In this document: in pieces, positions 8,256-31,800 of the stretch
How the letters are laid out: each line of letters begins with the position of its first letter
How positions within the stretch are numbered: position 1 is the stretch's first letter
Virus record (IMG/VR): IMGVR_UViG_3300021364_000081
Coordinates: 1 to 35,049 of that record
Length of the DNA: 35,049 nucleotides
Reading direction: 5' to 3' (one strand)
DNA from: a virus
The notes under the pieces: generated by a model
What the model was told of the DNA's origin: nothing
The model's database searches: none
Seen by the model: the letters and a program-made list of their open reading frames with translations, nothing else
Translations under genes and position numbers: made by a program

Positions 8256-11200
8256 TTACTTCTTAGTTACGTGGGAAACAAATGTGAATGTAACAGTGTT
8301 GGTATCAGGAACATCTGCACTTAGAACAGTATTAATCCTTACCTCATTTGTAGCGGGAACATACTCAACAGTAGCATCAAATAGTTTGATACCTGTTCTG
8401 AGGTTACCATATTCTGTATGATACACATCAGTGCCATCGTCAGTCATAGCGAATTCAATGAATTCTCTATCTCCGCTGTTGGTATTTATTGCACAGACTG
8501 TTGTCTTAGCAGCACATGATGTTGTGCTAGAGTAAATAACAGAATTTCCTTGATCTGTTGTTCCTTTGACTAGACTATAATCTTGAGATCTAATAATACA
8601 ATCTTCCAGTTCAACAGTCTTAAGATCATTCTTAAGTAGAGTTAGTCCTGTGAAATTACCTCCACCAAATCCAGTGTTAAATCCAACATCACCATCACTA
8701 GTAAGTCTGATAACTGGATCAATTGTAATACCAGCAGAGATACCAATATCAAACTTTGCTTTACTTGAATGTAGGAAAGTAGTATCTGCTACAGTATTGT
8801 CAAGAGTAGTTGCAGCACTATCAATTGTGAGTAGCGAAGCGGTAACTTCTAATTCATCAGATGTTACTGATCTGATAGTATCAATGCTGTAGAAATCCAA
8901 TGCTTGCGTTGTGAGCTGCATTGTGTTGTTGCCATCATTATAGAAGAACAGAACGTTCTCATTGGCACCAGGAGCAGTCTCTGGGATAATGTAAGTATTT
9001 TGGTCAACGTCTTTGACGCCACCGAGAGAACCCCAGTTATTTCCATCATATCCCTCAAATTGACTGTCAGTTGAGTTAAATCTAATAGCACCTTGTGCTT
9101 CAGCACCTCTATCACTAGTACCACCAACAGGTAGAACAAGAGTAGATGTTGCATCAATTTCAACTCTCTTTCCAGCGTTAGGTCTGATAATTAAATCGTT
9201 AACGTCTGTAGAGATTGCATTGTTGCTCATACGGAGTTCACCGTTGACAACAAAATCTGTAAGACCTAGAGGATCAATTCTAAATTCAGATGTTTCTTCA
9301 ACAGTGATTGCGTCTACTGCTGTGTATACCCAACGTAGAGTTGCAGATCCGTTGGTAAAGTTATTTCCAGAAGTATCTCCTGGTTCAGAACCAGAAGTTG
9401 CGGTAACACCTGCTACCATTACTTCATAGATGTCATTCTTCCACTTGAGATACGCACCAACTAGTACAGGTGTATTAGCAGTCCAGTTGACATATGCTGG
9501 TGCAGCAACGTTGTTAGAACGCATCTTCTTAACGTTCTGGAACTCCATGTGGAATGGAGAGAACTTCATTGTATTAACAGCGTTGTTGTAGAACCACAAC
9601 GTGTTATCGTTTGCGCCAACAGTTTGTTCTGCTAGGATATATGTGTTACCGTCTAGGTCACGAACACCACCCAAGGAAGACCAGGACTGGTTAGCACCAC
9701 TGTAACCCTCATATTGATTAGTCTCAGTGTTGAAACGAATAGCACCATTACCATCAGTTGCAACAGGGAAGTTGGGTCTTGCTGCACTATCACCTGAAGG
9801 AATAATAATAGACGTTGCAGCAGAAACTCTTACGTTTTGACTTGTCGATGCATCAGGAGTAAGAGTTAGTTCTTCACCATTAATAGAAGAAATAACATTT
9901 TCAGAAATTCTTGTCTTCTCATTGACTTCAATCAGAGAAGTTGTCTTGATATAACCAGTGCTATCTAGATTACCATCAGTATCAATGGTAATATCATCAT
10001 TAATCGCAAGATCAGTACCACCAAGAGTTAGACTACCAGCAGCAGTAATAGTTAGGTTTGGTGCTGTTGCAAGAGTTGCGATTGCCGATGCATTAATATT
10101 ACTACCATTAATAGTTGTCGCTGTAAGAGCACCAGCAGCAGCAAGATTAACGTTTGTTGCGTTAATCGTAGTGCTCGTTAGAGTTGGAATAGTAACAAGA
10201 TCAGTTGCAACATCAGTCTCAATCAAATTTAATGTTTGTACTGAAGTTACGGAAATAGAAGCACCAGAACCAAATACTCTTGGGTTATTTGGATCAATAG
10301 TGATAACTGCTTCCAAATTATCTTCACCGCCCATATTAGGGTGGATCGTACAATAATAATAAAGAGGAGATGCTGTAGTTTCTGTTACTTTGAATTCCGC
10401 AGAGTTACCTGTTCTCGTAACACCCTGTGTATATTCAGTACCACCAAAGTTTAGAATGGCACTACCAGCAGCAGTTGGTGCTGCACTAAGTTGAACAGAG
10501 GATGAGTTAGGAACTGCAATGACTGTGGTTCCTGCAGGAATTGCGTCAGTTCCGCTGATGTAGAGAACTTGCATTCCAACCTGAATGCCAGTAGAACTAG
10601 AAACAGATAGAATTGTATTTCCAGAAGATAGAGTTGCTGTTACATTCTCCACCAAACTTGGAGAGAAAGGACCGTCTCTAAATTCACTTAGAGCAAATAC
10701 ATGACTTCCTTCATAATTGAAGACATATGTGTTACCAACATATAGTGTTAGATCTGGAATATAAGCTCCATCTATCAAGAATTTGAGATTACTTTCTGCA
10801 GCAGTTAGAGTTAGTGGATTTGCACTGTTGCTAGTTCTTACAACCTGACCTGCTGAGTAGTTATCATTGCTGGCAATAACACCAGTAATTTGAGATCCAT
10901 CATCTAGAACCTCATAGATAACTTGATCTGTGCCAGCATCACTTACCCCAGATGCTGTAACGGTTGTAGTTCCAGATGTTCCAGGTACGTTTGCAGTGAG
11001 ATTATCATTTGCAGTATATCCATAACCTCCAGATGTAAAGTTAACTGCAGCTACCTCACCTTGGTCATCGATGTCTACATCAGCAACAGCGCCAGTTCCA
11101 GTACCACCAGAAAAAGAAACTCCAGTGACTACTCCTTCGGATCCTCCTGTGCCTGGTGTTACGATATCAGCAGATTCAATAGCACCACCATAAGTTCTGA

Positions 11201-12557
11201 TCGTATTCGATGTTGTGAAAGCACCCAATGCTGCTGTGAATGATAATTTAACACCATCAATAGATGTTACAGCATATACGATATCTTGTACCAGATCTGC
11301 AGGATCAACTCCAAGAGTGTCACCTTCAAAATAACCAACACCACCATTAGAAATGGTAACTGTATTGATAGCACCTAGAGAACTGATGGTATAGTTAAAT
11401 GCTACACTCTGGTTGCCATATGGTGGAACAGCAGTAAATGTAGCAGAACCAGCTGTAGTTGGTGTATCTGACAAAGACATTGACCACTGCTGGGTGTCTG
11501 CGTTAAATTGTACATTAGCAACTGTAGTATTGGCAGCAAGAGCACCAGTTCCAGTAGCAGTAATTGGAGAACCATCTACAAGATTTAATGCATCGGTTGC
11601 TGTAATATTAACCTGGCTAAGTGGATTTCCATCTTCCGAATCAATTGTCGCACTGAAAGTATATGGGGTAGGTAAAGTTAAAACATCACCAACTGTATAT
11701 CCAGTTCCATAACCAGCAAAACTAAAATTCTCAGTGTCAACAGATCCAGGATTGTTGTTAACTGTAAATACAGCACCAGAACCACCACTAGTTTGTGTTA
11801 CATCATTCTCATCCTGATATTCCATATCAGCATTGATTGGAACCAGATTATCCGCATTTGAATAACCAGTTCCACTGTTAGTAATGGTTACGATTGTTAC
11901 TTGTCCTTGGTCTACTGTAATAGACGCAACAGCACCTGTACCTGTGCCACCCGACAGTCCAACATCATCATAACTACCATCTTCATACCCAGAACCATTT
12001 GCAGTGATCGTTCCAGCAATAGGGAGAATAGTAATGTTTGCTGTTGTTCCAGATCCAGTTCCACCTAGTAAATTGACGGCAGAATAAGTTCCTGCTACCA
12101 TACCAGCACCAGCATTAGTGATGCTACCTATGAATGATAGAACCTCAATAGTAGCAGCAGCATTTCTACCAGTACCACCTGTTAGAAGAATATCGTTATA
12201 TGTTCCTGCCTCATATAAAGAACCAGGACTAGTTACTGAAATATCAGCAGTTGTTAGAAAATTCTTTTGTACAAAACTATCACCATAAGTTTTGTATCCA
12301 GTTGGTGTAAAGTCAGCATATTTTTTACCGCCACCAACGACACCAAGAGTTCCTACTTCTACTTTGTAGAGACCTAGGTCTTCGTCGTTTGTATATGCTA
12401 AACTTGGAGAGGTGATGCTACCATCACCCAGTTTTAAGATGCCAGTCGATAGGTCACTACCGCCCTGTGCAACGTTGAAAATTTGTGTACTGATCTCATT
12501 AATTTTGACCCTTTGCTGTTCAAAGGTATCAGTACGTGCTACATTAATTGCTGGCAT
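8256..12557 (-). CDS. Tail-fibre-like virion structural protein with embedded cupredoxin domain
   Basis: This 1433-residue protein starts MPAINVARTDTFEQQRVKIN, a start I recall from cyanomyovirus structural proteins. Three GTY/GSY repeats begin at residues 118, 156 and 194 with an exact 38-residue period, followed by further GxGY units to about 540. A cupredoxin-like domain (about 580-750) carries H619 (GSHVFALS) and C736-H739-M742 (CTIHPNM, the amicyanin spacing), interrupted by about 70 residues of a VGM-type beta module. Residues 770-900 are short beta repeats (TINATN, LTLTPDA). Two related blocks begin GAIRFN at 938 and 1156, each continuing through EGY, LGGV(R/K)D and NTYI. The C-terminus is a conserved beta region ending VTFTFVSHVTKK. 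The start overlaps the preceding small gene by 14 nt, implying coupling. Fibre or baseplate-decoration identity is inferred. Confidence 0.85.
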   Translation of the reverse strand: MPAINVARTDTFEQQRVKINEISTQIFNVAQGGSDLSTGILKLGDGSITSPSLAYTNDEDLGLYKVEVGTLGVVGGGKKYADFTPTGYKTYGDSFVQKNFLTTADISVTSPGSLYEAGTYNDILLTGGTGRNAAATIEVLSFIGSITNAGAGMVAGTYSAVNLLGGTGSGTTANITILPIAGTITANGSGYEDGSYDDVGLSGGTGTGAVASITVDQGQVTIVTITNSGTGYSNADNLVPINADMEYQDENDVTQTSGGSGAVFTVNNNPGSVDTENFSFAGYGTGYTVGDVLTLPTPYTFSATIDSEDGNPLSQVNITATDALNLVDGSPITATGTGALAANTTVANVQFNADTQQWSMSLSDTPTTAGSATFTAVPPYGNQSVAFNYTISSLGAINTVTISNGGVGYFEGDTLGVDPADLVQDIVYAVTSIDGVKLSFTAALGAFTTSNTIRTYGGAIESADIVTPGTGGSEGVVTGVSFSGGTGTGAVADVDIDDQGEVAAVNFTSGGYGYTANDNLTANVPGTSGTTTVTASGVSDAGTDQVIYEVLDDGSQITGVIASNDNYSAGQVVRTSNSANPLTLTAAESNLKFLIDGAYIPDLTLYVGNTYVFNYEGSHVFALSEFRDGPFSPSLVENVTATLSSGNTILSVSSSTGIQVGMQVLYISGTDAIPAGTTVIAVPNSSSVQLSAAPTAAGSAILNFGGTEYTQGVTRTGNSAEFKVTETTASPLYYYCTIHPNMGGEDNLEAVITIDPNNPRVFGSGASISVTSVQTLNLIETDVATDLVTIPTLTSTTINATNVNLAAAGALTATTINGSNINASAIATLATAPNLTITAAGSLTLGGTDLAINDDITIDTDGNLDSTGYIKTTSLIEVNEKTRISENVISSINGEELTLTPDASTSQNVRVSAATSIIIPSGDSAARPNFPVATDGNGAIRFNTETNQYEGYSGANQSWSSLGGVRDLDGNTYILAEQTVGANDNTLWFYNNAVNTMKFSPFHMEFQNVKKMRSNNVAAPAYVNWTANTPVLVGAYLKWKNDIYEVMVAGVTATSGSEPGDTSGNNFTNGSATLRWVYTAVDAITVEETSEFRIDPLGLTDFVVNGELRMSNNAISTDVNDLIIRPNAGKRVEIDATSTLVLPVGGTSDRGAEAQGAIRFNSTDSQFEGYDGNNWGSLGGVKDVDQNTYIIPETAPGANENVLFFYNDGNNTMQLTTQALDFYSIDTIRSVTSDELEVTASLLTIDSAATTLDNTVADTTFLHSSKAKFDIGISAGITIDPVIRLTSDGDVGFNTGFGGGNFTGLTLLKNDLKTVELEDCIIRSQDYSLVKGTTDQGNSVIYSSTTSCAAKTTVCAINTNSGDREFIEFAMTDDGTDVYHTEYGNLRTGIKLFDATVEYVPATNEVRINTVLSADVPDTNTVTFTFVSHVTKK
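8900..9750 (-). repeat. Internal duplication of a ~218-residue block in the tail-fibre-like protein
   Basis: GAIRFNTETNQYEGYSG starts at residue 938 and GAIRFNSTDSQFEGYDG at residue 1156. Each is followed by a W-x-S-LGGV(R/K)D-x-D-x-NTYI stretch, then GAN(D/E)N and FYN(N/D)..NTM. The 218-residue offset indicates an ancient tandem duplication. The copies have diverged at the DNA level. Confidence 0.8.
10332..10703 (-). other. Cupredoxin-like type 1 copper ligand set, split by a beta insertion
   Basis: His619 is encoded at 10701-10703, and Cys736, His739 and Met742 lie in CTIHPNM at 10332-10352. Type 1 copper proteins bind copper through His...Cys-x2-His-x2-Met in the amicyanin-like arrangement, and YYYCTIHPNMGG matches that loop. 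The 116 residues between H619 and C736 exceed the usual distance because a module (about 635-705, with a VGMQV core) is inserted before EYTQGVTRTG. Copper binding is inferred. Confidence 0.65.
11864..12206 (-). repeat. 38-residue GTY/GGTG beta repeats
   Basis: Three units, AGTYNDILLTGGTG, AGTYSAVNLLGGTG and DGSYDDVGLSGGTG, begin at codons ending at 12206, 12092 and 11978. The period is exactly 114 bp (38 residues). Related units occur in the gp7-position protein, in gp8 and at the left edge of the window. Confidence 0.85.
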
Positions 12558-25800: not shown

Positions 25801-28800
25801 GTTTTTGTAGTACAGCATTTAGAGATAAGAACAAGTTCTCCTCTTCTTCTAATAGTACGTTTGTACCATCTTCCCAGTAGAGATCAAATTCTTTGGTTTC
25901 ACCATCAATAAAGTCAGGAAGTGTTTTGATAACTGCTTCGCGATTGATAACGTCGTCAATGTTATCATATAGTGAATTGATACCAGAGATGACATCCTCA
26001 CACTCTTGTAGAGGAATGTTTGGATCAAGAATGATATTGTAATTAGAATATGTAAGAGATCCTGTGTATGCACCAGATCTGTTAGGATTGATTGAAGTCT
26101 TAGGCACAGCACCCTTTCCATTAAGTAGAATGTCCTCAACAATTCCATAGAAATTATTCAGTGATGCTTCTACTTCAGCACATACAGGAGTTACGTTATC
26201 TATGAGAACATCAGGATCTGTGATTGGTCCTTGATTTCTCATAGCAGCAATCATTTGGTTCTTAGCATACTCAAATGTTGCTAAGGTTTCTGTCAATTCG
26301 TTGTTGACAAAATCTAACTTTTCAGATTGTGGGTACTTAGCACTTTGATAGTAGAACCTTCCAAAATCAACGACTTGCTCGTTACCACCTAACTGAAGAT
26401 GGTAAACGATGGCATCAACAAAATATCCAACATCACGCTTGCACTTAGTCTGAATATCATAAGTTCCACCAGGAGCAAAACCAGAAATAGTAAAGATTGC
26501 AAATGGTGTTAGTGCAAAATCACCTTCTTCAACAATATTGACAGCAATACATCTTCCTTCATCATCAAACTCTGCCTTTGCTGTTGGTGTAAACTGGTAA
26601 GAACCAGTAAGCCATGAGAGATTAACAACTGCTGTTTCTGGATCATGACCATAACCTGGGTTCGAGACAGTAAAAGTAGTTTTCTTTTTAACACGGCAGT
26701 TTGCGTCTAAGTCAGATACTGCATTACCACCAATACCACGAATGTAACCAATTGGAACTCCAATATTAAATTCACCAGTTTCAGTGATCCAAATATTACC
26801 AATTCTCTTACCAAGAACAATCTCTGCTTCAGCGTTACCAGCAATAGTAATTTCTTTATTGGAGTAGTTCTCTTGTTCTACATATGTCGTCTGCTCATTA
26901 ACAGTAAGTTCACGATATCTTTGACCGATGATATAACCAGTAATAGTAATACTAGTAACAGCATCACCAGTGACAACAGCAGTAGCAGTAAGACCAGACA
27001 TGTCACCACCAAGTGTGACAGTTGGTGGATTGGCAGGATCATAACCACTACCACCATTGGTGATATTGATCTGTTTGATGTAACCATTCAGTTCTAGATC
27101 AGCACTAAGTTCCCAACCAGTACCAGTCTGATTAGTTGGACTTACTACAGTGTTAGCAGCAGGGAAGACATATAATGTAGGAGCAGTTTCATAACCGTCA
27201 TTCTTGTCTTCACATAAGTATGCTGAGCTCTGATTGTTTGTAACAACTTCACCTTTTACAATTTGTACCGTACCAACATCTAGATAACGTGATACATTTA
27301 ATGTTCCTTGTGCCTGAACTCTTGTACTGGTGGGATCTTCCCAATTTAAAGAAGGATAAGCAGTCTTTGCCCAATCAACAGAAGATTGTTTAATCCATTC
27401 TTTGTTTGAATGAATTAAAGTAGAAGCATCATAGTATGTGCCGTTGTTAAGACCACTCAAGGAGAATGTTACTTGGTCGCTACCAGAGAAGGAAGTTGGA
27501 GTTGTAACAGTAACACCAGGAGGTAGTTCATAAGTATCACCAACAGGAACCTGACCAGTATTTGTAGGAACAGATCCTGTAGTTGCTGTGCCACTTAGAG
27601 AAGTGATACCAACAGGAGCACCGCCGCCACCACCAGAGTTAGCAAGTGCAGCATGACTTACTGTTATTTGAGTAGCATTGTCAATAGAAATAATCTTTGT
27701 GTCTTTAGGGAATGCTCTACCAGAACTGACATACATTCCAACAGCAACATTATCTGTAGAAGAAATCGATACAATTCTGGAACCTTGTAGATAAGATGCA
27801 GCAGTATCTGTGTAATCCCAATTTCTAGTTGCAAGTTTTGCTAGTCTTACAGCGTATGCAAAAATAGCAGAACTCTCAGTTCTGTAATTTTGAATGTATA
27901 GATACTGATCGTCTTCATCAAAGAGAGAAACATAATCAACAGTTTTGACATTACCACCAAATCTAACATCATGATCTAGTGCTTTCAGAATTGCTCTGAT
28001 GTTTTCTTGGTAATCATCAGTTTTTGTACTCCAATCTAAACCAGGGTAAGTTAGTTTTGCCCACCCAATTGTTTCCTCAATAATAAAGTCAATATTTCTT
28101 TCAATTTGATTTGCAGCGTCGATGTATCTGCCATTACGCTGGAAAATATTTCTTAACTTTTTAAAGTGTTTGTTATTATACTGATTATCCTTAAATGCAA
28201 TGTACTTCGCATAGAAAGTGACACCCTTATATTCAGACAAATCTGTTTGTGCTTCACCAGTCTGCTTAGCAGAAGGACCTAATGGTGCTTCACTAAATGT
28301 AATTTGTGTTCCACTAATAGTATAAGAAGATCCTGGTTCTTGTAAAACACCATCCAAAGTAACAATCAAATTATTTGCACTATATGGAGTAAATGCTTGA
28401 CCTAGTTCATCCAACAATGTGAATGTTTTTCTTCCAACTGTTTCAGCTCCACCTGTGTAAGAAGCACCAGTTGCATCTACACCATTTACACCATCGAATG
28501 GTTCTTGTAGTTTTACTTCAAAAGCACGTAGTTCGTTGAAGTTAAACTCAGAAGATGCTGCAGCACCAACACCTCTACGAATTCTCTGGTTCTCAATCTT
28601 CTGGACAGTTTGAGTAAGAGTTTGTTTAGTGCTCTCAATCGTAATCTTATTCTTGTTTGGATCCCATAGTTGAATGACGGAGAAGTGAGATGCCTTTGGC
28701 ATTTCTTCTGGCATTTCGGTAGAAGCAGTTCCCTCTACATCAACTTGACCAAATAGTTGGAAACCAGCAGGGTGTGTGGTAGACTTGATAAGTTCACGCC

Positions 28801-31800
28801 ACTGATTGATTGGTGTCTTAGACTTAACAACGTAAGAATAATCTTGATAGAAATAACTATCGACAATCTTCTGGTTTGATACACCCAATCTACCACGATC
28901 AGTTCTAAAGAAACCTAGGTTGTCATAGAAACTTGTAATCTGCTCTTCAAATGTAGTAACAAATACAGATTTGAGTGTAGCAGTAACTGGTGTGACATCA
29001 GTCTGGAAAGACATGTTCTGTCTGAAGATGCCAGTGATGTTTTCAACCTTGAGTAGGTTAGAACCTTTTCTCCACTCAACAACTCTTGCTCTTGCTACTT
29101 CAACATTATCAATAATCTGTTTGATGGTCTCACCCTTTCTAAATTGTCCAGTAGCATTCGTGACAACAAAGATAGAATTGGATTGGAAGGTAGAACCAAC
29201 AGTTTTGTCTAGGTGGAATGCGCCACCATTGTTAGAAACAGTGATACTCTTTGGCAAACCAATGGTCTGACTTTCTGCATATGCAGCAACATTACTTTCT
29301 ACAATCTCAATGTCAGGTGCAAAGGTGTAACCTCTACCAGGAGTTTTGACTGTGATGGAGAAGATTTGTCCTTGTCTTACAATGATGTCAAATGTTGCTC
29401 CAGCACCATCACCATTAGTAATTACAACTTTTGGATTTGAGTAGTTGGAACCTTTATTTGTAATATTAACACCAGTAATAGTTTTAGATGCGGTATCATA
29501 CAATACAGTAGCAGCACCTTTATAATCAGGTGTAGGATCTACACCTACAACAATAGGAACTTTCTTATAATTCAGTCCAAGGTTTGTGACCGCAAATCCA
29601 TTGATCTCACCAATAGAGAACTCACCAGTAGTAGTATAAGAAATGGATCCAGAACCATCCCAAAGAGGCACACTAGGTACATCGTAGACAAAACGATTAG
29701 ATGTGACATAGTTTACATTCTTAACTCCTTGTAGTGGATCAGTGATAACTTTTAGATATGCATCATCAGACTTAACAATATTCTTTCTATCATAATAGTA
29801 GAAGTTTGTGAAATCTGTTCCTACTTTTGTTTGATAATTGTTAGTAGCAAGTCTAGAACCAAATCCAAACTTAACATCTGTAAATGCGCCAGCATTACCA
29901 GGAAGTATGGTGCTAGCAGTCTTTTCTACAGTCTCAAGGTTAAAGTTCTTACTAGGTGACAAATCAAAGTAAGTCCCAGTCATAGAAGAGTGAGACGTGT
30001 CAAACTTATACTTGTAAAACTCCTGAATATCAATGTTTGGATTAGGAGTGAAAGTAGTATTATCTTCAGAGAATTCAAATTTGAATTCTAGAGGACCAGC
30101 AGAGTTTACACTAACAAGTCTTGCTGGAGTGCTGCTATCAAAGAAACTAGAAGTTTGAGCAACTTCGTTTGCTGTTAGTACAGTTGTAGTATATGGGTAT
30201 GTGATAATAATTTTCTGAGTGTCTCTGTCATATGACTGAACACGTCCAGAGTTAGCACCAGAGAAAATCTGGAAGTTAGAATTGAAATTGTATTTTGCTT
30301 TGTATAATTGTACTGGTTGATTATCGTAATGATCTTTATCAACAGTATTTTCTCTAGCTCTAACTACAGTCAAAGATCCAGATGCAACAGCAGTGACTTC
30401 CATGATTTCATCACCAACTGTAATCAAGTCACCATTTGCATAACCAATAGTGCTATCAACAAAGAGGGTAGTCTCTCCTGCTGCTAGACCTACATGGTCA
30501 ATGTACAGTGTAAGACGTTGTGTGCTAGTAGAAGCACCAGATCTCTCTAAAGTTTCATCAGCAATTCCTAGATAGTCTGCCTTAGCATATCCAGAACCTT
30601 TTGCTTGGATCGTAACACTAGTAACTCGACCAGAACTAGCAACTACAATGTTTGCAGTAGCGCCTGTACCAGATCCACCAGTCAATGCAACGTTATTATA
30701 TGTTCCTGCTGTATAGTCAGCACCAGCATTTAATAGTTGGAACCTACCAATACCAGTATCCTTAACCTCTGTGTTAACAATAGGTGCAATCAGAGTTGCT
30801 GTTTGATACAGTCTTTTTCTTAGATAATAAGTCTTAAGTTTATTTGTATCGTCTGGAGTAATTGAAATATCAACCTTATCACCAATACCAAGACCATGTG
30901 GTGCATCAGTCTCAACCAATGCTACACTTTGATTAACATCAAATGGTTCTAGATTATCACTCAAAGAGGTAAGTGTGACAATTCTAGATCCAACAGTGTT
31001 GAATAGATTACTAGAACGAATAAAGTAATCATCGTTTACTACCCAAGTTCCACTAGTAACCTTGATCTTGACTACGTTTTGCTTAGAGGTTCCTTCTAGA
31101 ACTTCACCAGTAGCAACAGGATCGCTTTGACCATCTGTAAGACTGAGGATTGCACCTTCAGTATAAGAACTGTTCTGATCTAGAAGAATAGTAAATGTTT
31201 TGATGTCAGCAGAGAACGTTCCTGTTGTATCGAATGTACCATTTACATTCTTGAGAACAATAACGTTATCACTAGCGACAGTACCAACGATTTCACCAAA
31301 AGCACCAGAAGATGGTTGTCTTAGTGTATCATCAGCAAATAGATATGCAGTTTGAATTGTAGTCAACTTGACTACTTTTCTTTCTTTTGATTCTAGGTAA
31401 GTTACACCTTTTCCTTTAACACTAGAAACTAGTGCTTCAACTTCAGAACCTTCTGTTCCTTCATTGTCAAAATATACTTTAGAGTTAACAGAGAAGTTCG
31501 CAGAAGAACTTTCAATAGCAACACTGTCAACTGTACCTGGCGATACATCAGAAATTTGACCGATGAAACCCTCGCCGTTTCTTGGCATTCCTGCCGTAAA
31601 GAACCTTCTCGCTTTCTTTGGTATTTCTAACTGACTGATATTAGAGTTGTAGTTACTGTCAACAGGTAGAGAATAGAAGTTAGCACCTAGAAGGTATGGG
31701 AATTGCGGTACTTGATTGCTATCAATAGTAATGAAATAAGCATAAGTTCCTTGCGGAAATTCTGGGGTAACACAAAATCTTCCATTGTTTTCGTCTAGAG

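Follow-up and report, generated by a model that had tools for sequence, protein, structure and literature searches.

Does the baseplate region of a cyanophage encode a virion protein with a type 1 copper site, and if so, what would a metal do there? The question arises from four residues encoded in the window, which is the whole stretch of DNA analysed here, a 35 kb IMG/VR virus record (35,049 nucleotides). Its minus strand holds a T4-like cyanophage baseplate region, with the end of gp6 and with 3815-aa, gp8-like, 2697-aa, 1433-aa, 166-aa and 2569-aa tail-fibre proteins. The residues belong to the 1433-aa protein, which a sequence-only reading of this DNA had called a phage tail protein with a complete amicyanin-type copper ligand set. 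The protein is more aptly described as a virion protein encoded in the baseplate gene cluster (phrog_6005), and is best explained as a giant, beta-repeat-rich component of the baseplate or tail-fibre network of a T4-like cyanophage.

The ligand set and the parts of the domain

The features considered are the following.

8256..12557, minus strand: 1433-aa virion structural protein (phrog_6005) with the domain; open frame from ATG to stop, phrog_6005 at 1619 bits, orthologs annotated as virion structural protein
10659..10802, minus strand: cupredoxin-like domain, first part, residues ~586-633, holding H619; hhalign to the compact family
10446..10658, minus strand: inserted beta module of ~71 aa, residues ~634-704 (S634-F704); alignment gap versus compact relatives, Foldseek match to 8eci_1, absent in the S-WAM2 ortholog
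10308..10445, minus strand: cupredoxin-like domain, second part, residues ~705-750, with the ligand loop YYYCTIHPNMGG; alignment to compact relatives and ortholog columns
10701..10703, minus strand: H619, first equatorial ligand; covaries with C736 and H739
10350..10352, minus strand: C736, thiolate ligand; position checked, present or absent jointly with H739 in 91/91 orthologs
10341..10343, minus strand: H739, second equatorial His; position checked, co-conserved in orthologs
10332..10334, minus strand: M742, axial ligand; Met or Glu in all orthologs with the Cys and in none without it

In the translated open frame (8256-12557, minus strand), H619, C736, H739 and M742 lie at exactly the coordinates given by the sequence-only reading, so that His, Cys, His and an axial Met occur in type 1 copper order. 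The C-x2-H-x2-M spacing is that of amicyanin, where the loop is C-T-P-H-P-F-M, and a C-x(1-4)-H-x(1-4)-[MQ] motif is found nowhere else in the seven main window proteins. Cysteine and histidine are rare in the 1433-aa protein (4 and 6 residues in total), and the proposed ligands include the first of these Cys and the first two of these His. H619 and H739 are the only His of the domain, which thus lacks the paired His-x-His motif by which tail-fibre HxH iron sites are recognised.

What had been overlooked is the beta module between H619 and C736. Because of this insertion, the two residues are 117 residues apart in the window, versus 50 in compact relatives. The module matches a chain of Arthrobacter phage Bridgette (8eci_1; Foldseek probability 1.00, 33% identity over 70 columns), and it recurs in the same 1433-aa protein (residues 315-375; 11433-11615, minus strand) and in the 3815-aa protein (residues 2137-2212; 27641-27868, minus strand). 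Apparently, it is a repeat unit shared around phage baseplate proteins. The 3815-aa protein also has a weak, partial match to the cupredoxin-like domain itself (residues 1413-1468; 29873-30040, minus strand; i-E 0.004); a C-x-H-x-M motif is absent from that protein.

A domain family of marine phages and bacteria

Cupredoxin-like domains of the window type form a family that is widespread in marine phages and bacteria. Phage relatives and a scan with the pattern YYC..H..MGG, which matched at least 120 stretches, define a compact domain of ~100 aa with the consensus 'NKYxIDG..Q.TL.L.EG.TYxFDxSDSSNSGHPLRFSTT.DGTH..GSEYTTGVT...TxIxV..AP.LYYYC..HSGMGG'. The window copy is this compact domain, split after residue ~633 by the ~71 inserted residues: alignment by hhalign of 40 interrupted with 38 compact sequences (probability 99.7, E 7e-27) leaves a single main gap and has the H/C/H/M residues in register. 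In the S-WAM2 ortholog (L019, ORF residues 380-540) the domain lacks the inserted module and has lost every ligand, and this stripped copy is the sole remaining member of the domain family there.

Bacterial relatives are marine, and are small secreted proteins with a signal peptide, or lipoproteins; the closest are found in SAR86, Cellvibrionales and other marine heterotrophs. Five of the bacterial proteins (L346, L351, L377, L381 and L382) carry one to three domain copies behind a signal peptide or lipobox. Some of the matches in bacterial genomes may be phage contigs. Judged by their sequences, the SAR86 and Cellvibrionales proteins constitute a putative exported cupredoxin family that is not registered in databases. 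The 1433-aa window protein does not match Pfam PF00127 (Copper-bind) at E 1, and the window domain with its insert removed, used as a Pfam query, matches nothing. Ten of 25 compact relatives match PF00127 at E<=1 (best E 0.0032); on re-scanning, compact relatives score 13.5-15.6 bits, below the cut-off of 21.2 bits, and the compact family does not reach the cut-off of any Pfam cupredoxin model. A scan of the domain family against NCBIfam gave nothing, and direct sequence searches of the PDB gave no significant match. A different cupredoxin-like domain, ending in ...YYYICQFHGGMVGQI, occurs in 671-977-aa proteins of the same cyanophages (L401, L404, L406, L409, L431-L437) and scores near the Pfam plastocyanin cut-off.

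Predicted fold

AlphaFold was run without templates on a compact relative (mean pLDDT 97) and on the window domain (mean pLDDT 88, with core blocks at 95-98). A Foldseek search with the window model returned mainly relatives of the insert, in phages Bridgette and phi92; because the insert dominated these matches, the compact relative was used. Its best 16 matches in the PDB are without exception copper proteins from the cupredoxin/multicopper-oxidase superfamily, headed by rusticyanin (E 2.5e-4, probability 1.00, TMq 0.54), with nitrite reductase and AcoP placed near and amicyanin at ranks 46 and 50; the TM values of these matches are only about 0.5. In BFVD, a 1497-aa virion structural protein from phage ACG-2014e can be superposed on the compact model (rmsd 1.6 over 176 columns); gaps are counted among these columns, which agrees with an insert in the ACG-2014e protein. 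This protein shares its annotation with the ortholog from the near phage ACG-2014i and is probably itself an ortholog of the window protein. The structure prediction that bears on the sequence-only reading is in its favour: AlphaFold and Foldseek predict a cupredoxin beta-sandwich for the compact relative, to which the window domain is homologous by hhalign. The predicted architecture is thus that of the blue copper proteins known from photosynthesis.

The ligands are kept or lost together

Relatives were fetched with the half upstream of the Cys alone, the motif being excluded, and the best 80 were kept, representing 76 distinct sequences. All 76 have the His and, downstream, C-x2-H-x2-M, with Met in 76/76; as these sequences are close to the query, the count tests co-occurrence rather than the far edge of the family. 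The ligand motif is thus not due to chance, as relatives chosen blind to it invariably possess it.

A broader set comprised 91 distinct orthologs, found mainly via the C-terminal 260 residues, with some phage records and motif-scan matches added. Of these, 63 have both C736 and H739 and 28 have neither, without a single discordant case, and H619 is kept in 63/63 orthologs with C736/H739 and in 7/28 without them. In a covariation analysis the three pairs among H619, C736 and H739 occupy ranks 1-3 of 14,209 column pairs, with phi 0.82 for the H619 pairs (ranks 2-3). The axial residue follows: where the Cys is kept it is Met (20) or Glu (43), and orthologs that have lost the Cys show Ala, Leu, Ser, Ile or Phe instead. 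The Glu form (43/91 orthologs, including L148, L151 and L197) has a longer loop, His...Cys-x5/6-His-x2-Glu. From its sequence, this Cys-His-His-Glu set would resemble nitrosocyanin or a zinc site, and a different metal may be bound. Known cupredoxins tolerate exchange of the axial residue between Met, Gln and Glu with H, C and H retained.

The co-conservation of the four residues, on which the sequence-only reading depended, is thus seen in both sets, and in the orthologs it extends to joint loss. Together with the amicyanin loop spacing and the predicted cupredoxin fold, it argues that the ligands have been read correctly as a putative amicyanin-type set. That the type 1 copper-type site is a selected unit is strongly supported, and its being kept or lost as a whole in related viruses suggests that the virion binds a metal there. 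Joint loss and covariation also lend indirect support to the idea that the ligands would lie near enough to share one metal. The site is dispensable, since the ligands are gone from four related short orthologs that possess no second domain in the same protein, and since the S-WAM2 copy is stripped.

A second domain upstream

Most of the longer orthologs (1600-1835 aa) possess an uninterrupted copy of the domain at residues ~260-410, with a ligand loop of C-x2-H-x2-M or, in eight orthologs, C-x2-H-x2-Q. The interrupted domain is canonical in 18 proteins that have no upstream copy and in two (L155, L157) whose upstream copy has lost its His and Cys, while none of the 63 proteins with an upstream site is also canonical in the interrupted domain; three non-truncated proteins have the Glu form alone. 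Two canonical sites in one protein thus occur in 0/90 cases (Fisher 2e-14) and, after thinning, in 0/47 (1e-9), values that are inflated by relatedness. Tree contrasts yield only 5 supported independent pairs, of which 2 are opposite, 0 the same and 3 without difference (p 0.5).

One reading of this pattern is that a baseplate copper centre under selection moves between the two cupredoxin domains of the protein, so that a chain never has more than one canonical site and the remaining copy either decays or becomes the longer-loop Cys-His-His-Glu form; virions would then be copper proteins in which metal acquired at lysis tunes host attachment. We regard this as a tentative and doubtful proposal. 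If true, virions would be of importance among the copper ligands of the surface ocean.

What the site may bind, and what for

We favour, as moderately probable, an explanation in which residues ~586-750 form a cupredoxin module, split by the insert, with a type 1 copper-type site of amicyanin spacing. H619, C736, H739 and M742 are predicted to bind one copper per chain. Virions assemble in the cyanobacterial cytosol, which contains almost no free copper, and because of this the metal would most likely be loaded at lysis or later, the source being copper released from the host or present in seawater. Its most likely role would be to stiffen a host-facing module at the baseplate edge, so permitting stable and correct surface recognition or presentation, with the inserted module displayed from the loop after H619.

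The same lack of copper in the cytosol can be turned against this explanation. The metal site may be real but filled by zinc, another or a varying ion, with a purely structural role, and the replacement of Met by Glu in 43 orthologs, with the longer C-x5/6-H-x2-E loop, creates a Cys-His-His-Glu set that suits zinc. The window, however, retains the Met, a poor zinc ligand, and the short loop, as do all 76 relatives chosen blind to the motif with respect to the Met; moreover, the other axial variant upstream is Gln, as in stellacyanin-type copper sites. We consider a zinc or other non-copper site unlikely. A step further, the domain could be an inert cupredoxin scaffold, its ligands being relics or core residues with metal binding gone. 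Phage proteins of such size can employ the cupredoxin fold in this way, and the 28 of 91 orthologs that keep the fold without the ligands demonstrate that its retention is independent of metal. Relics would be expected to drift singly, but C736 and H739 always go together, and the axial position of copies with the Cys varies only among Met, Gln and Glu. The pattern of co-loss therefore argues against an inert scaffold, to which we assign a low probability.

A more active role would be that of a redox or copper-sensing device, in which the baseplate would be triggered, or permitted, to open when the site exchanges electrons or binds copper at the host surface. Type 1 sites are adapted to electron transfer, the Met/Gln/Glu axial variants would set the potential, and the protein is encoded in the baseplate cluster. 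Neither a partner nor a conserved path is seen, however, and some phages of the same kind have lost the site, so we think such a device very improbable and prefer a metal-stabilised, host-facing module over redox or sensing functions. As to origin, capture of a host plastocyanin (petE) and its fusion into a tail gene might be suspected, given that 16 of 18 complete cyanophages encode a plastocyanin-like PF00127 protein of 109-129 aa. Yet the loop is C-x2-H-x2-M and not C-x2-H-x4-M, and the nearest cellular relatives are the marine heterotrophs named above, which makes capture extremely unlikely. Origin from the phage plastocyanin was rejected for want of profile similarity (hhalign of the compact family versus phage petE, probability 3.4).

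Significance and comparison with known systems

To our knowledge, the metals of phage tails have so far been mainly iron held by HxH motifs, and no report of cupredoxin domains in virion proteins was found in the literature searched, which comprised papers readable without subscription. If the site is real, phages that abound in the ocean would have, in a baseplate protein, a type 1 copper-type site kept by selection, and this would represent a new class of virion metal site. It lies in a cupredoxin domain family common to phages and marine bacteria, which is unnamed in Pfam and NCBIfam. The co-loss pattern already argues that selection acts on the four residues jointly, and the question that it raises is testable: do cyanophage virions contain copper, and is it needed for attachment?

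With amicyanin (PDB 2gb2, 3ply, 4p5r) the window domain shares the order His...Cys-x2-His-x2-Met, the short loop and the predicted cupredoxin fold. It differs in being part of a virion protein and in being split by an insert, and no sequence relation was found past the motif (phmmer and profile searches of the PDB gave no amicyanin homology). Rusticyanin (1rcy) and the cupredoxin domain of three-domain NirK (2dv6) are the best fold matches of the compact relative (TM ~0.54), but these are secreted cellular electron carriers or enzymes. Nitrosocyanin is a red copper protein with a Glu ligand that comes from elsewhere in the chain; its Cys-His-His-Glu identity is like that of the Glu-variant orthologs, whereas the window protein has Met.

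Among phage proteins, the plastocyanin petE is a cupredoxin encoded by the same phages as the window-type domain, but it is a free-standing metabolic gene product with a signal peptide and C-x2-H-x4-M, while the virion domain has C-x2-H-x2-M. The Bridgette chain 8eci_1, with the PDB molecule name decoration protein, has a fold like the inserted module but, unlike the latter, is without a surrounding cupredoxin. T4 gp37-type tail fibres possess HxH iron sites that have been discussed for host attachment (PMC11705849); like the putative window site, these are metal motifs in a phage tail protein, but they differ from it in fold, ligands and metal.
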